In this document: positions 21,309 to 26,586 of the stretch, one piece after another
Numbering within the stretch: position 1 is the first letter of the stretch
How the letters are laid out: each line of letters begins with the position of its first letter
From: a virus
Direction: 5' to 3' (one strand)
Length of the DNA stretch: 29,545 bases
IMG/VR virus record: IMGVR_UViG_3300047483_000048
Location: 1 to 29,545 of that record
Made by a program: the position numbers and the translations under genes
The notes under the pieces: model-generated
What the model was told of the DNA's origin: nothing
Seen by the model: the letters and a program-made list of their open reading frames with translations, nothing else
Database searches by the model: none

Positions 21309-21977
21309 ATGAAGATTTTAAACTTATACGCTTGCCTGGGAGGTAACCGATACAAATGGGATGAGGTTGCTGACAATTTAGAAATAACTGCGGTAGAGCT
21401 TGACCCTGAAGCAGCACGTTTATACCAAGAGAGATTCCCAAATGATACAGTAATTGTAGCCGATGCGCACCAATACTTGTTAGACCATTACAAAGAATTC
21501 GATATAATTTGGAGTTCTCCTCCTTGTCCGAGTCATTCAAGAGCCAGGTATTGGAACAGTTCAAACTATGATACATCAGTTAACGCAATTTATCCGGATT
21601 TAAAACTTTACGAAGAAATCTTGTTTTTGCAGCACTATTTTAAGACAGGAAAGTATATAGTTGAAAACGTCATTCCATATTACGAGCCTTTAATACCTGC
21701 ACAAAAAAGAGGTCGACATTTGTATTGGACAAACTTTGTTTTACCAAATGATTTACAAGATAGACGTTTTGCAATAACCCAAGCAAAAAACGAATTAAAA
21801 GGATTATGTGAATTCCACGATTATGATTTTAAACAATACAAAGGAGAGCAAAGCGTTGTTAAAATGGCTCGTAACCTGGTAGATTATGACGCAGGTAAAA
21901 CAATACTTGAAACCGCTTTAAACATAGTTAAGAAATCAAATACAAACCAAACAAGCATTTTTGATTATGATATGTAA
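21309..21977 (+). CDS. Compact C5 cytosine DNA methyltransferase
   Basis: A 222-residue protein. Motif I variant NLYACLGGNRYKW (about 5-17), motif IV WSSPPCPSHSRAR with catalytic Cys73 in PPC, motif VI VENV (about 118-121), motif VIII-like QKRGRHLYWTN (132-142) and motif X-like KMARNLVDYDAGKTIL. It has no clear variable target-recognition domain and is much shorter than usual Dcm-type enzymes (over 300 aa). It would methylate cytosine in phage DNA, possibly against host restriction. No restriction enzyme gene is nearby, so it is a solitary enzyme. Target sequence unknown. Confidence 0.85.
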   Translation: MKILNLYACLGGNRYKWDEVADNLEITAVELDPEAARLYQERFPNDTVIVADAHQYLLDHYKEFDIIWSSPPCPSHSRARYWNSSNYDTSVNAIYPDLKLYEEILFLQHYFKTGKYIVENVIPYYEPLIPAQKRGRHLYWTNFVLPNDLQDRRFAITQAKNELKGLCEFHDYDFKQYKGEQSVVKMARNLVDYDAGKTILETALNIVKKSNTNQTSIFDYDM

Positions 21978-22104
21978 ACACGGATTTTATACTTGTATAA
22001 ATTGCCTTAAAGAAATTGAATCAATGTGTGATACTTGTGAAAATGGAGATAACTACGAAATAAATGAAGATTATGAGGTGCAAGAACTGCAAGGAGAAGT
22101 TTGA
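21967..22104 (+). CDS. 45-aa zinc-knuckle miniprotein
   Basis: ATG 21967 lies 11 bp inside the methyltransferase end; stop TGA 22102-22104 is inside the NinG gene. The sequence MICKHGFYTCINCLKEIESM CDTC... has Cys pairs C-x-x-C at positions about 10-13 and 21-24, plus Cys3/His5, fitting a small zinc ribbon or two knuckles. The overlaps on both sides and Cys spacing support reality. May be a small regulator or an accessory to NinG (also Cys-rich); unproven. Confidence 0.5.
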   Translation: MICKHGFYTCINCLKEIESMCDTCENGDNYEINEDYEVQELQGEV

Positions 22105-22588
22105 GCCAATCCGCTTCAATCATAAATATTGTCTAAAAGACGAATGTGTCCGTGCTTTTGTAGCTGAAGCCAAAGAGAAGATGTGGAAGCAGACTAAAGT
22201 CAAGATGAAGAACGACATAAAGACGAACTCTGATTGGCTAAAAGAAGCTCAAGTAGTATTCAACCGATACATCCGTGAACGTGATAAAGGACTAAACTGC
22301 ATCAGTTGCGGAAAGAAACCTCTGAAAAAAAATTGCGGTCACTTCTACAGTCAAGGTGGACACGCTAATGTTCGATTTGATGAAGACAACTGCCATCTTC
22401 AATGTGAGCATTGCAATACTTTCCTGAGTGGTAATCTACTAAACTACCGAGAAGGTCTCTTAAAACGCATCGGAGAGGCTAAATTGGACGCTTTAAGTCA
22501 ACGTGCTAACGAAACACGGAAGTACACAAACGATGAACTGCAAGAATTGATAAAAAAATATAAAAAAAAGATTACTGAATTGAATTAA
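22064..22588 (+). CDS. ninG: NinG (Rap) recombination protein
   Basis: A 174-residue protein matching the NinG/Rap family of recombination endonucleases that act on branched DNA. N-terminal zinc ligands CKNC (about 6-9), YCLKDEC; central RYIRERDKGLNCISCGKKPL, CGHFYSQGGHANVRFDEDN, CHLQCEHCNTFLSGN, then YREGLLKRIGEAK. This is the known layout of lambda NinG: Cys-rich N-terminus, HNH-like core and basic end. It pairs functionally with ERF and the YqaJ-type exonuclease downstream. An alternative start is the ATG at 22073. An AACACGGA word lies at about 22514. Confidence 0.9.
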   Translation: MKIMRCKNCKEKFEPIRFNHKYCLKDECVRAFVAEAKEKMWKQTKVKMKNDIKTNSDWLKEAQVVFNRYIRERDKGLNCISCGKKPLKKNCGHFYSQGGHANVRFDEDNCHLQCEHCNTFLSGNLLNYREGLLKRIGEAKLDALSQRANETRKYTNDELQELIKKYKKKITELN

Positions 22589-22623: not shown

Positions 22624-23151
22624 ATGAAGAATCTATTTAAATCGTTGGCATCGTTCCAACAAGAAGTGCCTGTCATTCACAAGGCAACGCAAGGTTACGG
22701 TTACTCTTATGCAGACCTACCTAAAATCTTTGAAGTAATCAATCCGCTTTTAGCTAAACACGGACTTGGCTTCACTCAAAACATCTTTACAAAGGATGGA
22801 GAGACTCGCTTAGAAACAATGATTTTCCACGTTGAGACAGGAGAGAATATGACAAGCGCAGTAGCTATTCCTTACGTTCAGTTGAAAGGTATGAATGATT
22901 TTCAGTCCTTCGGTTCGGGCGTGACCTACTACCGCAGGTATGCCATCTCGGCTGCTCTTTCGCTTGTGACGGATAAAGATACCGATGCTGCCGGTGAGCA
23001 AGTTAAAACTGAGAAAGCTAAACCTGCCATAGACCAAAAGCGTTTTAGCGCAGCAGTACAAGCCATTGCCAAAGGCGAATACACTCGTGAGAAGCTCGAA
23101 GCATCGTTTGCATTAACTGAAGGTCAAATAGATATTCTTAACGCACTATGA
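22624..23151 (+). CDS. ERF-family single-strand annealing protein
   Basis: A 175-residue protein. Visible: ATQGYGYSYADLPKIFEVIN, a core β-sheet with LAKHGLGFTQNIF, and the diagnostic GSGVTYYRRYAISAALSLVT (about 97-116), followed by a variable Lys/Ala-rich C-terminus. These are hallmarks of the ERF family (P22 Erf-like) of ring-forming annealases that pair single strands in phage recombination. It overlaps the exonuclease gene by 4 bp, forming the usual annealase-exonuclease pair. Confidence 0.9.
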   Translation: MKNLFKSLASFQQEVPVIHKATQGYGYSYADLPKIFEVINPLLAKHGLGFTQNIFTKDGETRLETMIFHVETGENMTSAVAIPYVQLKGMNDFQSFGSGVTYYRRYAISAALSLVTDKDTDAAGEQVKTEKAKPAIDQKRFSAAVQAIAKGEYTREKLEASFALTEGQIDILNAL

Positions 23152-23828
23152 AGGCTCTCAAAATTAGGTGTTCTGCCATCGGGAAACTAATGGCTACACC
23201 TCGCTCTAAAAGCGAACTACTAAGCCAAACTGCAAAGACATACATTCACGAGTTAGTATTAGAACATAAATACGGTATCCGTAAGGAGTTTTCAAGCCGT
23301 TACACGGACAAAGGATTGCAAGTTGAAGATGAATCTATCTCGTTGGTCAATGATGTCTTAGACGTTAAATTTATTTACAAGAATGAAGAGTATTTTGAGA
23401 ACGATTGGATAACAGGAACACCTGACGTAAACACGGAAGATGTATTATTAGACGTGAAAAGCTCTTGGGATGCTACTACTTTTCCGTTTTTTGATACCGA
23501 GATACCTAACAAAGACTACTTTTATCAGCTTCAAGGATATATGTGGCTCACAGGAAAACAACAGTCAATGCTTTGTTACTGCCTTGTAGATACTCCTATC
23601 GAAATGGTAGAGGATGAAATCAGACGTGCGCATTGGAAGCTACACAAACTTGACGAGGATATGGATTTGCGTGAAGAAGTAGAGAGTAAGCATCAGTTTT
23701 CACACATACCAAAGAACCGAAGAGTCAAAGTTTTCTACGTACAAAAAGACGAACAAGTAATCGAGCAGATAAAATCTAAAATAGAAGATGCTCGTGAGTA
23801 TTACAACGCACTAATTCAAATGCTATGA
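23148..23828 (+). CDS. YqaJ-type PD-(D/E)XK exonuclease
   Basis: A 226-residue protein. Active-site elements of lambda-exonuclease/YqaJ-like nucleases: GLQVEDESISL (Glu60), ITGTPDV (Asp93) and VLLDVKSSW (Asp102-x-Lys104), then DYFYQLQGYMWLTG, a conserved QLQGY helix. It would resect DNA ends 5'-to-3' to make the single strands that ERF anneals. Length is slightly short for YqaJ. Overlaps the ERF gene by 4 bp and the next gene by 4 bp. Confidence 0.85.
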   Translation: MKALKIRCSAIGKLMATPRSKSELLSQTAKTYIHELVLEHKYGIRKEFSSRYTDKGLQVEDESISLVNDVLDVKFIYKNEEYFENDWITGTPDVNTEDVLLDVKSSWDATTFPFFDTEIPNKDYFYQLQGYMWLTGKQQSMLCYCLVDTPIEMVEDEIRRAHWKLHKLDEDMDLREEVESKHQFSHIPKNRRVKVFYVQKDEQVIEQIKSKIEDAREYYNALIQML

Positions 23829-24016: not shown

Positions 24017-24222
24017 AAATAGAACTAACAACAAAAGAGCTTCAATCAATGGTAAGGGGAAGGTCTCCTTATTATGACGCATTTAATCATCCATTAGTTA
24101 AGAAAGCAGGTCATTCATTTTGTGAACCTTATGGTAGCACGAGTTGGAGTAATTTAGATAATCTTACTGATGAGGAACTTTACGAATTGTATTTAATAAA
24201 TAAAAATAGTTGGAAAAGATGA
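24013..24222 (+). CDS. 69-aa hypothetical protein
   Basis: ATGA overlap with the preceding gene. Begins MKIELTTKELQSMVRGRSPY, then AFNHPLVKKAGHSFCEP and a helical end LTDEELYELYLINKNSWKR. No membrane segment. Function unknown; the spacing of conserved aromatic/Gly residues looks like a small folded domain. Confidence 0.55.
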   Translation: MKIELTTKELQSMVRGRSPYYDAFNHPLVKKAGHSFCEPYGSTSWSNLDNLTDEELYELYLINKNSWKR

Positions 24223-24521
24223 ACCAAGAAGTAAAAGACCAAGTAGTTTTAGCCGTGATGGCGAAATATGCTGAACGCTCTGCAACAGGATTACGAAAAT
24301 ACGGAACTACATTAGACCGAGAAGACCTAACTATCTTTGATTGGATAAATCACGCTCAGGAGGAGGCTATGGATTTCACTTTGTACCTTGAAAGAATTCG
24401 TAAAGAGATAAGCCTTGAGAAAGTTAAGAGCTTCAGCGAAGGCTACCGAGAAGCAATTAACAACCAAAAAGGCTGCGCGTGCTATGGCAGTAACTCAATG
24501 CACGAATGCAATTGTAAATAA
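24219..24521 (+). CDS. MazG-like nucleotide pyrophosphohydrolase candidate
   Basis: I chose ATG 24219 (MNQEVKDQVVLAVMAKYAER), in ATGA overlap, over the TTG at 24210. The 100-residue product is helical with SATGLRKYGTTLDREDL, DWINHAQEEAMDFTLYLERI containing an EExxD element typical of all-alpha NTP pyrophosphohydrolases. A Cys-rich tail (CACYGSNSMHECNC) follows. Phage proteins with KYG-TLDR-DL-W--H--EE--D usually belong to that superfamily. The Cys tail is unusual. Could sanitize dNTP pools or interfere with ppGpp signalling; not demonstrated. Confidence 0.5.
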   Translation: MNQEVKDQVVLAVMAKYAERSATGLRKYGTTLDREDLTIFDWINHAQEEAMDFTLYLERIRKEISLEKVKSFSEGYREAINNQKGCACYGSNSMHECNCK

Positions 24522-24553
24522 ACACGAACTAAATAAATCAGAATAAGATGGAA
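24520..24553 (+). repeat. 34-nt exact repeat, copy A (intergenic)
   Basis: Identical over 34 nt to 25165-25198. Starts with AAACACGAAC and ends in the AAATCAGAATAAG-ATGG start region of the next gene. In this copy nearly all of it is non-coding: it follows the TAA stop at 24519-24521. Confidence 0.85.
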
Positions 24554-24745
24554 CTATTCAAAAGTAAATGGGGTCAATGGATAGACCTATCAACTGCGGG
24601 GTATATGGGGTATAAGTATTTGCTTCAAGCAAGAAGACATAAAGACGGAAGAATACAATACAGAGTAGAAAAAAGTCAAGATAGTTACACTTGCAACATC
24701 CCAACACTTGAACAATTACAAAAAGTAACCTTTAAATCAAAATAA
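24548..24745 (+). CDS. 65-aa hypothetical protein
   Basis: First gene of the linker-punctuated array. Sequence MELFKSKWGQWIDLSTAGYM, β-rich with aromatic residues, then YRVEKSQDSYTCNIPTLEQL and a Lys end FKSK formed by the linker sequence. No membrane segment, no motif. Function unknown. Confidence 0.55.
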   Translation: MELFKSKWGQWIDLSTAGYMGYKYLLQARRHKDGRIQYRVEKSQDSYTCNIPTLEQLQKVTFKSK

Positions 24746-24749
24746 AATT

Positions 24750-24953
24750 ATGAGTTGGATAGAAGATAATTTAGATTGGAAAATTTTAGAAGATTATATG
24801 AACCCAAAAGAAGAAATCATAGAAGATGTTACAAAAAAAGAAATATTAGATGTTTTATATGAAATAAGCACATTAGTTTCAGATGACATAGAATTTTCTA
24901 AAGAACTTAATGAAAAGTTTAAAAGAGTTGAAAAATATTTAGAATCAGAATAA
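24750..24953 (+). CDS. 67-aa acidic hypothetical protein
   Basis: Starts with linker ATG 24750 (MSWIEDNLDWKILEDYMNPK). Strongly acidic, all-helical (EEIIEDVTKKEILDVLYEI), ends YLESE where the next linker provides its last codons. AT-rich codons. No known domain; acidic charge could imply protein or DNA mimicry but this is speculative. Confidence 0.55.
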   Translation: MSWIEDNLDWKILEDYMNPKEEIIEDVTKKEILDVLYEISTLVSDDIEFSKELNEKFKRVEKYLESE

Positions 24954-24954
24954 G

Positions 24955-25191
24955 ATGAACAAATGGGATAAATTAAACAAAGAATTTGATGAGGCTTTGG
25001 ATTCTATGACTTCAGAAGATTGGAAGAGTTGGTATGAAAGATTCAAACAAAAACAAATAAATAAAAATAAGATGGGACTAATCAAAGATAAAGCCGATAG
25101 CCTAAAAAATGAACCTTATCATAAGAGGTTAAGAAGGTGGCTAAAGTTTAAACTATGGGTATGGAAACACGAACTAAATAAATCAGAATAA
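24955..25191 (+). CDS. 78-aa basic helical hypothetical protein
   Basis: ATG 24955 follows linker copy 3. Acidic N-terminus (KWDKLNKEFDEALDSMTSED), then a basic helical part (GLIKDKADSLKNEP, KRLRRWLKFKLWVWKHELNK). The last codons KHELNKSE and the stop are encoded by repeat copy B, so part of the repeat is translated here. Function unknown. Confidence 0.5.
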   Translation: MNKWDKLNKEFDEALDSMTSEDWKSWYERFKQKQINKNKMGLIKDKADSLKNEPYHKRLRRWLKFKLWVWKHELNKSE

Positions 25192-25198
25192 GATGGAA
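25165..25198 (+). repeat. 34-nt exact repeat, copy B (mostly coding)
   Basis: Identical to 24520-24553. Here the first 27 nt encode the C-terminal KHELNKSE and stop of the preceding gene; in copy A the same DNA is not translated. This points to recent duplication or selection on the nucleotide sequence. Confidence 0.85.
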
Positions 25199-25423
25199 AA
25201 AGAATTAACAGCAGTAGAATGGTTTGCAAAGCAAGTATTAAGTGCAAGGCAACTTGGTTTTATTTCAAATGAAAAGTTCAATGAACTTCTTGACCAAGCC
25301 AAAAAAATGGAGAAGCAAGATAAATTTAAGGAGTACGATGAAGGATATGACCTTGGATTAAATCACGGCAGACAAATTCATCGTGGAGGATTTAGAGGTG
25401 CAGATGGACCAATACTAAAGTAA
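25193..25423 (+). CDS. 76-aa hypothetical protein
   Basis: Starts with linker ATG 25193 (MEKELTAVEWFAKQVLSARQ). Helical N-terminus with FISNEKFNELLDQAKKMEKQ, then YDLGLNHGRQIHRGGFRGAD, a Gly/Arg/His-rich end. Phages of Bacteroidota often carry small proteins starting MTAVEWF.QQL, but no function is known to me. Confidence 0.55.
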   Translation: MEKELTAVEWFAKQVLSARQLGFISNEKFNELLDQAKKMEKQDKFKEYDEGYDLGLNHGRQIHRGGFRGADGPILK

Positions 25424-25446
25424 AGAATTATATAAATTACAAAAAG

Positions 25447-25536
25447 ATGGAAGTAGATATATTTTTGCTACCGATAATTATGTTTTCAGGTGGTGTTTTA
25501 GTAGGTATTATGATAGGAACAAATAAACCAAAATAA
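25447..25536 (+). CDS. 29-aa membrane mini-protein
   Basis: ATG 25447 to TAA 25534-25536. Product MEVDIFLLPIIMFSGGVLVG plus IMIGTNKPK is one hydrophobic helix with a short basic tail, the typical layout of a single-span phage microprotein. AT-rich with an A-rich leader (AAAAAG-ATGG). No linker copy precedes it. Confidence 0.45.
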   Translation: MEVDIFLLPIIMFSGGVLVGIMIGTNKPK

Positions 25537-25537
25537 T

Positions 25538-25648
25538 ATGAAATATACATTTTTAATATTACCTCTTTTTGCTTTTAGCAAGTACAATGATGGCTCAAAA
25601 GAAATAACTTTTGGGTGGTTTAAAAAGACTTGGACTTTAAAATTCTAA
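25538..25648 (+). CDS. 36-aa small basic protein
   Basis: ATG 25538 directly after the preceding stop. MKYTFLILPLFAFSKYNDGS has a hydrophobic N-terminus resembling a signal or membrane anchor, followed by a basic, aromatic end (GWFKKTWTLKF). Followed by linker copy 5. Supported by array context only. Confidence 0.4.
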   Translation: MKYTFLILPLFAFSKYNDGSKEITFGWFKKTWTLKF

Positions 25649-25666
25649 CCTTTAAATCAGAATAAA

Positions 25667-25756
25667 ATGGAAAGAAACTATATTATCAAAGTAAGTGGTC
25701 AATATGTGGTTTTAACAGAAGGTCAGTATGAACAGTATTTAATTTATGGTATTTAA
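25667..25756 (+). CDS. 29-aa mini-protein
   Basis: ATG 25667 within linker copy 5, stop TAA 25754-25756 within linker copy 6. MERNYIIKVSGQYVVLTEGQ plus YEQYLIYGI is a β-hairpin-like Tyr-rich peptide. It is bounded on both sides by linkers, which supports it as an array unit. Confidence 0.45.
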   Translation: MERNYIIKVSGQYVVLTEGQYEQYLIYGI

Positions 25757-25767
25757 ATCAGAATAAG

Positions 25768-26013
25768 ATGACACCAAAAGAAAAAGCAAAACAAATACAC
25801 AGCACGCATTATTATGCAATATCTTCAGATGGTTCGTACTCATTTGAAATAGCAAAAGAATGTGCATTGATTTCAGTTAATGAGATAATGAAAGCACCGT
25901 TTGAAAATAGTTACTTGGAATTAGTTCCAGATGACGCACCAGATTCTGATTGGTATTGGGATAAATTCAGAGAATATTGGGAGGAAGTAAAATACGAAAT
26001 AAATAACCTTTAA
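25768..26013 (+). CDS. 81-aa hypothetical protein, conserved-looking in Bacteroidota phages
   Basis: Starts at linker ATG 25768: MTPKEKAKQIHSTHYYAISS, then EIAKECALISVNEIMKAP and a Trp/Tyr/Asp-rich end (DDAPDSDWYWDKFREYWEEV). The layout 'KEKAKQ...AKECALISVNEI...FREYWEEVK' is a pattern I associate with small phage proteins of this host group. Function unknown. Confidence 0.6.
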   Translation: MTPKEKAKQIHSTHYYAISSDGSYSFEIAKECALISVNEIMKAPFENSYLELVPDDAPDSDWYWDKFREYWEEVKYEINNL

Positions 26014-26024
26014 ATCAGAATAAG

Positions 26025-26252
26025 ATGAAAGTAACCATAGAATACGATGACAAAGACGAAGCAATCCAAGCGTTAAACGCTGAGAAATGGCAAGGTGCAA
26101 TGTGGAAGCTTGACCAAGAGTTGCGAGGGATATTAAAACACGGATACATCGGAAACCAAGAAGCTACCGACTGCGAGTTTTTAGTGTACACCAAATGCCG
26201 TAAGATGTTACGTGAAGCAATGGAAGACAACGACATAACCTTTGACATATGA
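26025..26252 (+). CDS. 75-aa hypothetical protein
   Basis: Starts at linker ATG 26025: MKVTIEYDDKDEAIQALNAE, a β-strand then helices (WKLDQELRGILKHGYI, CRKMLREAMEDNDITFDI). Such small α/β proteins are frequent next to recombination genes in phages. Ends with an ATGA overlap with the next gene. AACACGGA word at about 26139 (coding KHG). Confidence 0.6.
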   Translation: MKVTIEYDDKDEAIQALNAEKWQGAMWKLDQELRGILKHGYIGNQEATDCEFLVYTKCRKMLREAMEDNDITFDI

Positions 26253-26350
26253 AACAAGACGACAACGAATACCTTGCAGCAATCAGCACGATGATACTGG
26301 TAACAGCTATCGCAATTATTTTAGTAATCAATTTAATCTATAATTTATAA
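26249..26350 (+). CDS. 33-aa single-span membrane mini-protein
   Basis: ATG 26249 (ATGA overlap), stop TAA 26348-26350 overlapping the next ATG. Product MKQDDNEYLAAISTMILVTA plus IAIILVINLIYNL: charged N-terminus and one hydrophobic helix. Overlaps on both sides support it. Function unknown. Confidence 0.5.
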   Translation: MKQDDNEYLAAISTMILVTAIAIILVINLIYNL

Positions 26351-26586
26351 TGGAAACAAAGAACAACGCGGGTGCAATCTTTAAGAACACGAACAAGAAA
26401 GCTGACAACCATCCTGACTACAAAGGAAAGGTAAACGTAAACGGAAAAGAGATGGAAGTAGCTCTTTGGGTAAAGCAAGGCAAAGCAGGTAGTTTCTTCT
26501 CAGCATCATTCAGCGAGCCGTATGTAGCACCGACTGAAGAGAGAAGACCGATTGGAGATAGTATTGATTACGACCTTCCTTTTTAG
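26350..26586 (+). CDS. Small protein with SSB-like acidic C-terminal tip
   Basis: A 78-residue protein. The middle is a small β domain: NAGAIFKNTNKKADNHPDYK, GKVNVNGKEMEVALWVKQGK, FFSASFSEPYVAP, resembling the short all-β nucleic-acid-associated proteins (DUF736/SSB-like) of phages. The C-terminus is ...GDSIDYDLPF, which matches the acidic tip of bacterial single-strand DNA-binding proteins (DDLPF in Bacteroidota) that recruits partner proteins. Thus an SSB-like role or mimicry of the SSB tip is likely; it is much shorter than usual SSB. Start shares a base with the preceding TAA. Confidence 0.6.
   Translation: METKNNAGAIFKNTNKKADNHPDYKGKVNVNGKEMEVALWVKQGKAGSFFSASFSEPYVAPTEERRPIGDSIDYDLPF

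Follow-up and report, generated by a model that had tools for sequence, protein, structure and literature searches.

A stop–start linker as a probable gene-boundary adaptor for mini-gene cassettes in uncultured phages

Why should one short phrase stand, with few changes, in front of one small gene after another? The question is raised by a 29,545-nucleotide (nt) stretch of viral DNA, positions 1 to 29,545 of IMG/VR record IMGVR_UViG_3300047483_000048 (the whole stretch is hereafter 'the window'), in which a linker that overlaps stop and start codons recurs within the interval between a recombination exonuclease gene and an SSB-like gene. An original prediction, made from the letters of the window, had seen seven copies and proposed a modular gene boundary at which accessory mini-genes could be inserted, deleted or shuffled by homologous recombination. 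Our analysis makes it quite likely that the linker is a gene-boundary adaptor, combining a stop, a start and a crossover site for mini-gene cassettes, and that it belongs to a large group of phages, most of them uncultured and probably infecting Bacteroidota.

Linker copies and breakpoints

Scanning the window with AAATCAGAATAAGATG, at most three mismatches being allowed, gave ten matches at 24535-26027, all on the + strand, and none elsewhere, where 0.75 were expected; ten matches were reached in none of 100 shuffles of the window. Chance repetition is ruled out by these shuffles and by a reversed-pattern control in 40 whole contigs (4-373 kb), which gave 1 match versus about 117 for the linker at up to three mismatches. 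The seven copies first described were all correctly placed at their ATGs. The core is exact before ATG 24548, 25193, 25768 and 26025 and has one mismatch before 24955 and 25667, and the copy before 24750 has diverged to AAATCAAAATAAAATTATG. Because three further, decayed copies precede ATG 25072, 25447 and 25538, a linker or its remnant stands at nearly every gene start in 24548-26025. The conserved stretch also reaches upstream of the 16-mer initially recognized: copies 1 and 4 are identical over 34 nt (24520-24553 versus 25165-25198), and AACCTTTAAATCA(G/A)AATAA(A/G) is common to copies 2, 5 and 7, at 24727, 25647 and 26005.

At least two main dialects of the linker can be told apart among the sequences compared. 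Type A has the sequence TTTAAATCAGAATAAGATG, and a second linker, type B, TTTAAACAACAAGAACAATG, lies at the same locus of sibling phages, between the exonuclease and SSB genes; siblings with few or no type A copies mostly carry type B in the same role. Gene order around both dialects was compared in 299 non-redundant loci: wherever two loci had homologous genes, the genes next to them across the start boundary were scored as homologous or not. Break rates are family means among genes at least 97% identical, with non-linker starts within 800 bp as control. The upstream neighbour differed in 45% (type A) and 65% (type B) versus 7% at nearby non-linker starts and 9% at distant starts, and in the mirror test the downstream neighbour differed in 54% at linkers versus 4% at non-linker starts. 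Restricting the comparison to allelic loci left the contrast weaker but in place (0.33-0.51 versus 0.12-0.28), and permuting linker labels within each locus gave a largest difference of 0.27 versus 0.47 observed (0 of 300). Breaks are also present at 80-97% identity.

The breaks are located by identity profiles, which stay near 1.0 from -14 to the ATG; beyond this core they sink to background level, on the upstream side in one test and on the downstream side in the other. Where one partner has type A and the other type B, it is the gene that matches, and not the linker; the same gene behind type A in one phage and type B in another was found in no case at 97% identity or above and in many at 70-90%. 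The linker arms remain with the upstream gene, and the core is common to both partners. As had been foreseen, breakpoints of gene gain and loss are far more frequent at the linker than at non-linker starts nearby. The linkers are common to relatives and the breakpoints are tied to them, and the modular gene-boundary interpretation is supported by these sequence comparisons.

Cassettes gained, lost and shared

Relatives fetched through two anchors, the exonuclease and a downstream gene, supplied 95 allelic loci (67 distinct regions) in which the exonuclease–SSB interval ranges from 322 to 3489 bp. Each holds 0-6 type A linkers, all within that interval, and linker number rises with interval size (rho 0.71). 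The largest accessory region, L202 (labels of this form denote the fetched stretches or loci compared here), spans 3489 bp with about ten type B linkers and ~13 mini-genes, some families occurring twice. Across loci, linkers precede and follow dozens of unrelated gene families, in different frames.

Loss and gain of single units were sought by joining the flanks of two linkers to predict an empty site, which was then looked for. An empty site turned up for 15 of 173 same-type linker pairs versus 131 of 8922 non-linker start pairs (odds ratio 6.4). L167 and L217 differ by one extra 221-bp cassette, with sides 98% and 91-97% identical, and L144 and L241 by one type B cassette; with L228/L161, these pairs are one or two cassettes apart between flanks 91-100% identical. 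L212 and L069 also differ at a linker. Cassettes are shared between phages as well: in 33 linker-to-linker cassette pairs, almost all with an identity of about 90% or higher, the neighbours differ on each side. One TAVEW cassette among them is identical or nearly so in four loci, and an MSSEDIG cassette is common to L029, L064, L067 and L101, source contigs being very unlike in size (for example 31 kb for L029 and 106 kb for L064).

The original suggestion to look for the linker in other phages proved fruitful, as it is common both to relatives and to unrelated phages. At least 120 IMG/VR stretches contain the exact type A 17-mer, a single locus having as many as four exact copies, and type B is likewise present in at least 120; contigs often carry 2-10 linkers, and the matches in the 40 whole contigs are clustered, mostly on a single strand per contig. 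Among repeated words counted before ATG across loci, A and B stand far above the rest, most of these loci having been fetched with A or B. Arrays are mostly of one dialect, with 20 of 127 mixed versus 82 expected.

Two side observations concern dialects. Contigs retrieved through the TAVEW gene have as their most frequent repeated word AAATCAGAATAGAATG, a TAG version of linker A; it is repeated in ten contigs of L366-L446 and is a possible third dialect. In L125 (95-120) and L131 (close to the start of its fifth gene), the type B end ATGAAACAACAAGAACAATGA, giving the peptide MKQQEQ, comes directly after linker A; this junction resembles the scar of a deleted gene that started with A and ended with B.

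Outside metagenomic viral data the phrase is rare. An exact 22-mer was found in 3 of 84,980 prokaryote genomes, and since these matches are single and precede cellular-looking genes, the linker as a bacterial signal was ruled out; a 16-mer occurred in 2 of 200 Flavobacteriaceae genomes, about chance level. The type A 40-mer had no match in 50,697 isolate phage records, in which type B matched only two Enterococcus records (E=0.7). The nearest isolate terminases, at 54%, belong to Flavobacterium psychrophilum phages, so the host is probably a bacteroidete.

Stops, start context and surrounding genes

The order AACC-TTTAAATCAGAATAAG-ATG stops one reading frame at TTTAA and another at AATAA (C-terminus TFKSE*), the third frame being open. 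In the window, the upstream gene ends in the linker TAA near -4 (before 24750, 24955 and 25193), in TTTAA near -14 (25768 and 26025) or before the core (24548 and 25667), which bears out the earlier observation that the frame relative to the upstream gene varies between copies. The same holds more widely: the upstream open reading frame (ORF) stops at -4 in 130, at -14 in 45 and at -21 in 17 of 247 A linkers, with 6 readthroughs, and at +1 in 154 and -15 in 55 of 333 B linkers, with 9 readthroughs.

Linker ATGs open an ORF of at least 25 amino acids (aa) in 92-93% of cases versus 40% of random ATGs. In both dialects, 99-100% of linkers have A at -3, -6, -12 and -13, versus 45-62% of other starts, and no AGGAG Shine-Dalgarno motif is present in the linker sequence. 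Bacteroidota hosts do not use Shine-Dalgarno sites. The four A positions are those reported to favour translation in Flavobacterium johnsoniae (PMC6847099), and both dialects have the A residues of a Bacteroidota Kozak-like start region. The arms are conserved to about -40. The linker has no stable fold (z-scores -0.61 to 1.04) and no inverted repeat, one weak unrelated inverted pair being seen, and on these grounds a hairpin or inverted-repeat element was ruled out. The second linker, the cassette pool shared across phages, the near-exclusion of the stopless frame and the Bacteroidota start match go beyond what had been claimed before.

A tRNA-like element of ~150 nt was also seen between two type A linkers in L009 (minus strand), L081 (92-292) and L101 (2396-2596). 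It has GTCAGG...CCTGAC ends, a GGTTCGAATCC arm and a T-run, and the linker ATG opens only ATGAAATAG. Related elements occur in other contexts in L126, L309, L324 and L357. ARAGORN at default settings called no tRNA in L009, L081 and L101 and called one with an intron allowed, and we treat the element as tRNA-like only.

Features of the window are collected in Table 1. As noted earlier, the phage encodes ERF, exonuclease and NinG proteins beside the array, recognized by profile matches. The ORF at 24955-25191 looks like two fused cassettes because the decayed linker at 25052-25074 is read in its open frame (KQINKNKM). Farther upstream, the first 81 residues of a 222-aa ORF (21309-21977) match the N-terminus of C-5 cytosine methylases (PF00145, 3.7e-8), and this gene is probably a partial or fused methylase. 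At gathering thresholds the window gave no Rfam family and no structured RNA.

Table 1. Linker copies, mini-genes and flanking genes of the window, by position
Feature	Positions	Strand	Remarks
NinG/Rap family endonuclease	22064..22588	+	PF05766, 2.5e-40
ERF single-strand annealing protein	22624..23151	+	PF04404, 4.7e-29
Recombination exonuclease, left flank of variable region	23148..23828	+	phrog_5715, 3.7e-62
Gene f1	24219..24521	+	siblings have type A linkers and genes of 11 different families after it
Linker copy 1, AACACGAACTAAATAAATCAGAATAAGATG	24521..24550	+	start codon 24548; exact core; 34 nt identical to copy 4
Mini-gene cassette ORF, 65 aa	24548..24745	+	no Pfam or PHROG match
Linker copy 2, diverged, AACCTTTAAATCAAAATAAAATTATG	24727..24752	+	start codon 24750
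Mini-gene cassette ORF, 67 aa	24750..24953	+	no Pfam match
Linker copy 3, GAATCAGAATAAGATG	24942..24957	+	start codon 24955; 1 mismatch
Mini-gene cassette ORF, 78 aa, apparently a fusion of two cassettes	24955..25191	+	
Decayed linker inside ORF 24955-25191	25052..25074	+	2 mismatches; 83% identity with copies 1 and 4 over 23 nt
Linker copy 4	25166..25195	+	start codon 25193; exact core; upstream ORF ends KHELNKSE*
Mini-gene, TAVEW(L/F) family, the commonest cassette family	25193..25423	+	
Decayed linker before ATG 25447	25434..25449	+	3 mismatches
Decayed linker before ATG 25538	25525..25540	+	3 mismatches
Linker copy 5, AACCTTTAAATCAGAATAAAATG	25647..25669	+	start codon 25667; 1 mismatch
Mini-gene cassette ORF, 29 aa	25667..25756	+	
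Linker copy 6	25754..25770	+	start codon 25768; exact core; upstream ORF stop is linker TTTAA
Mini-gene, family f8	25768..26013	+	phrog_21441, 5.8e-9, unknown function
Linker copy 7, AACCTTTAAATCAGAATAAGATG	26005..26027	+	start codon 26025; exact core; upstream ORF stop is linker TTTAA
Mini-gene, family f4	26025..26252	+	siblings have it behind linker A, linker B or no linker
SSB-like gene, right flank of variable region	26350..26586	+	phrog_18154, 1.3e-13

Mechanism, competing explanations and known systems

In the explanation we favour, a phrase of ~17-40 nt would unite three overlapping functions. It has stop codons in two of the three frames, so that nearly any upstream ORF ends within it; it supplies a start region with A at -3, -6, -12 and -13 and without a Shine-Dalgarno site for whatever ORF comes next; and, as an identical direct repeat, it would be a crossover site at which single cassettes are lost, gained or swapped, whether inside one array or from phage to phage. 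The arrays lie in accessory regions, here the exonuclease–SSB interval. We infer that recombination proceeds by homologous annealing through the phages' ERF-type protein and exonuclease, and the start context would give efficient translation. Annealing proteins of the ERF kind reportedly outdo RecA in recombining diverged sequences, and Rad52-like ones in recombining regions of short homology (PMC3945230); given these properties and the recombination genes that the window encodes, annealing at the linker would be the simplest route. Recombination genes lie within 3 kb of the linker in 85-93% of the cases where they were found, and at least one was recognized in about half of the other linker contigs.

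Several observations weigh against this explanation or narrow it. In the exonuclease tree the dialect is clustered by lineage in part, at least five switches being needed, so the linkers are also inherited; and 20 of the 127 arrays mix dialects. The automatic search for empty sites yielded type B cases only, L167/L217, of type A, having come from alignment, and some exchanges have a linker on one side only (L069 versus the window at 26025). Linker-poor accessory regions show that genes are also gained by other routes, and an ERF relative is recognizable in less than half of the linker contigs, in the DNA fetched. The core, about 17 bp, is short for classical homologous recombination, and the crossovers are deduced from comparing sequences.

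A rival account, which we judge unlikely, is that the linker is a translation signal only, an optimal start region kept by selection, and that swapping is incidental. Such a signal would be expected to abut start codons, to carry the A residues favoured in F. johnsoniae and to lack stable structure, as the linker does. However, non-linker starts in the same loci work without it, siblings use both dialects, which differ in sequence between the conserved A residues, for the same gene families, and the phrase is at chance frequency in Flavobacteriaceae genomes. Nor does a pure translation signal predict raised break rates, arms conserved to about -40, or linkers that flank the tRNA-like element, where the ATG opens no real ORF. 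Because break rates are raised at linkers relative to other starts, the translation signal can stand only as part of the function.

Somewhat less probable again is a dedicated site-specific or mobile-cassette system whose recombinase recognizes the linker, as in integrons. Single cassettes do move, with precise boundaries, and dialect-pure arrays could mirror recombinase specificity. Against this, no integrase or transposase was found among the ORFs scanned, all of them from the window, which may be a fragment; the linker has neither inverted repeat nor fold, the arrays are co-oriented, and arms that remain with the upstream gene around a common core are what homology would give.

Misjoining of contigs at short repeats during metagenome assembly is very improbable. 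All linker-bearing phage data are metagenomic, and the arms and core together span about 40 bp, close to the smaller word sizes used in assembly; for the former reason the same junctions were looked for in other contigs. Such recurrence was seen for 241 of 659 linker junctions, some only through a contig fetched twice, and 56 junctions recur with both flanks 80-99.5% identical in 118 locus pairs, one of which (L127/L129) is a chance bacterial match and not a phage linker. These junctions were therefore inherited and have diverged, unlike chimeric joins. The breaks at 80-97% identity also argue against an artefact, as does the L167/L217 locus, whose filled and empty states each occur in two contigs (L167/L168 and L216/L217).

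Just as improbable is a decayed gene family, with tandem duplication having spread a linker made up of the common TAVEW gene's 3' end (...YYNETFK) and the start that follows: the long arm does encode EQYYNETFKSE* or ...FKQQEQ*, which ends many TAVEW genes in both dialects, and the TAVEW gene of isolate Flavobacterium elemo phages ends YYNEKFKK* with no linker array, but linkers adjoin dozens of unrelated families in different frames. The TAVEW 3' end is plausible as the linker's origin, not as its present use. The elemo phages elemoE and elemoA (L448 and L449) have the TAVEW gene in an ERF and exonuclease neighbourhood, with AAATAAGATATG three times before ATG; lacking linker arrays, they were rejected as a model of the linker system and are a possible culture-ready outgroup.

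Returning to the adaptor with its built-in crossover site, an earlier description of the linker was not found in the open-licence literature. Boundary sequences in phage mosaicism have a familiar instance in the lambdoid 'linkers'. In the published model, mosaicism arises by recombination at short conserved boundary sequences; whether mosaics originate by homologous recombination at boundaries or by random joining plus selection is called an unresolved question there, chiefly since no such sequence is reported to be findable at most mosaic boundaries (PMC3233612, PMC3029335). The present system resembles that model in its short conserved DNA at gene boundaries, the coincidence of homology breakpoints with it, here in measured excess, and the general recombination genes that the phage encodes. 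It differs in repeating one phrase many times per array, in the two-frame stop plus start, in having two dialects, and in a phrase common to phages of very different contig size. Here the boundary phrase is readable, can be counted in hundreds of contigs and compared with non-linker starts of the same genomes, and breakpoints concentrate at it.

Among repeated elements, the SAS/ESAS of cluster K mycobacteriophages (PMC3203893) likewise precede unrelated non-structural gene starts in one orientation, are absent from hosts, sometimes contain the upstream stop and, for ESAS, have a consensus that varies by subcluster, as the dialects do. SAS (GGGATAGGAGCCC-type) is a 13-bp element whose Shine-Dalgarno core lies 3-7 bp from the start, and 17-bp inverted repeats accompany roughly half of the copies (PMC3203893), whereas the linker has no Shine-Dalgarno site and no 17-bp inverted repeat and adds a two-frame stop and measured cassette exchange. 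The promoter early stem-loops (PeSLs) of T4-like phages, to which PMC4503421 ascribes gene shuffling, are also repeated intergenic elements with genes shuffled between related phages; they unite a promoter and a stem-loop, whereas the linker has no stable structure and takes in the stop and start codons. In Island3/Brujita, recombination between short repeats encoding a shared C-terminus added or removed a gene (PMC3029335), one event where ours recur in hundreds of contigs.

Integron gene cassettes, bounded by attC, are single-gene units with a common boundary that are added, lost and reordered in arrays; the arrays here differ in that no tyrosine integrase was seen in the window ORFs scanned, there is no attC-like folded site, and the boundary carries stop and start. 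A broader proposal, on which we are evenly divided, is that Bacteroidota phages draw on a global pool of single-gene cassettes in a common plug-in format, integron-like without an integrase, in which the phrase would be terminator codon, initiation region and recombination site at once and competing dialects would partly limit exchange partners. Scanning for the linker would be an easy route to accessory mini-genes in uncultured phages, and the linker itself is a candidate gene-joining part for Bacteroidota hosts. Among the systems compared, we file it as a variant of boundary-sequence recombination with built-in translation signals, and as neither SAS nor PeSL.

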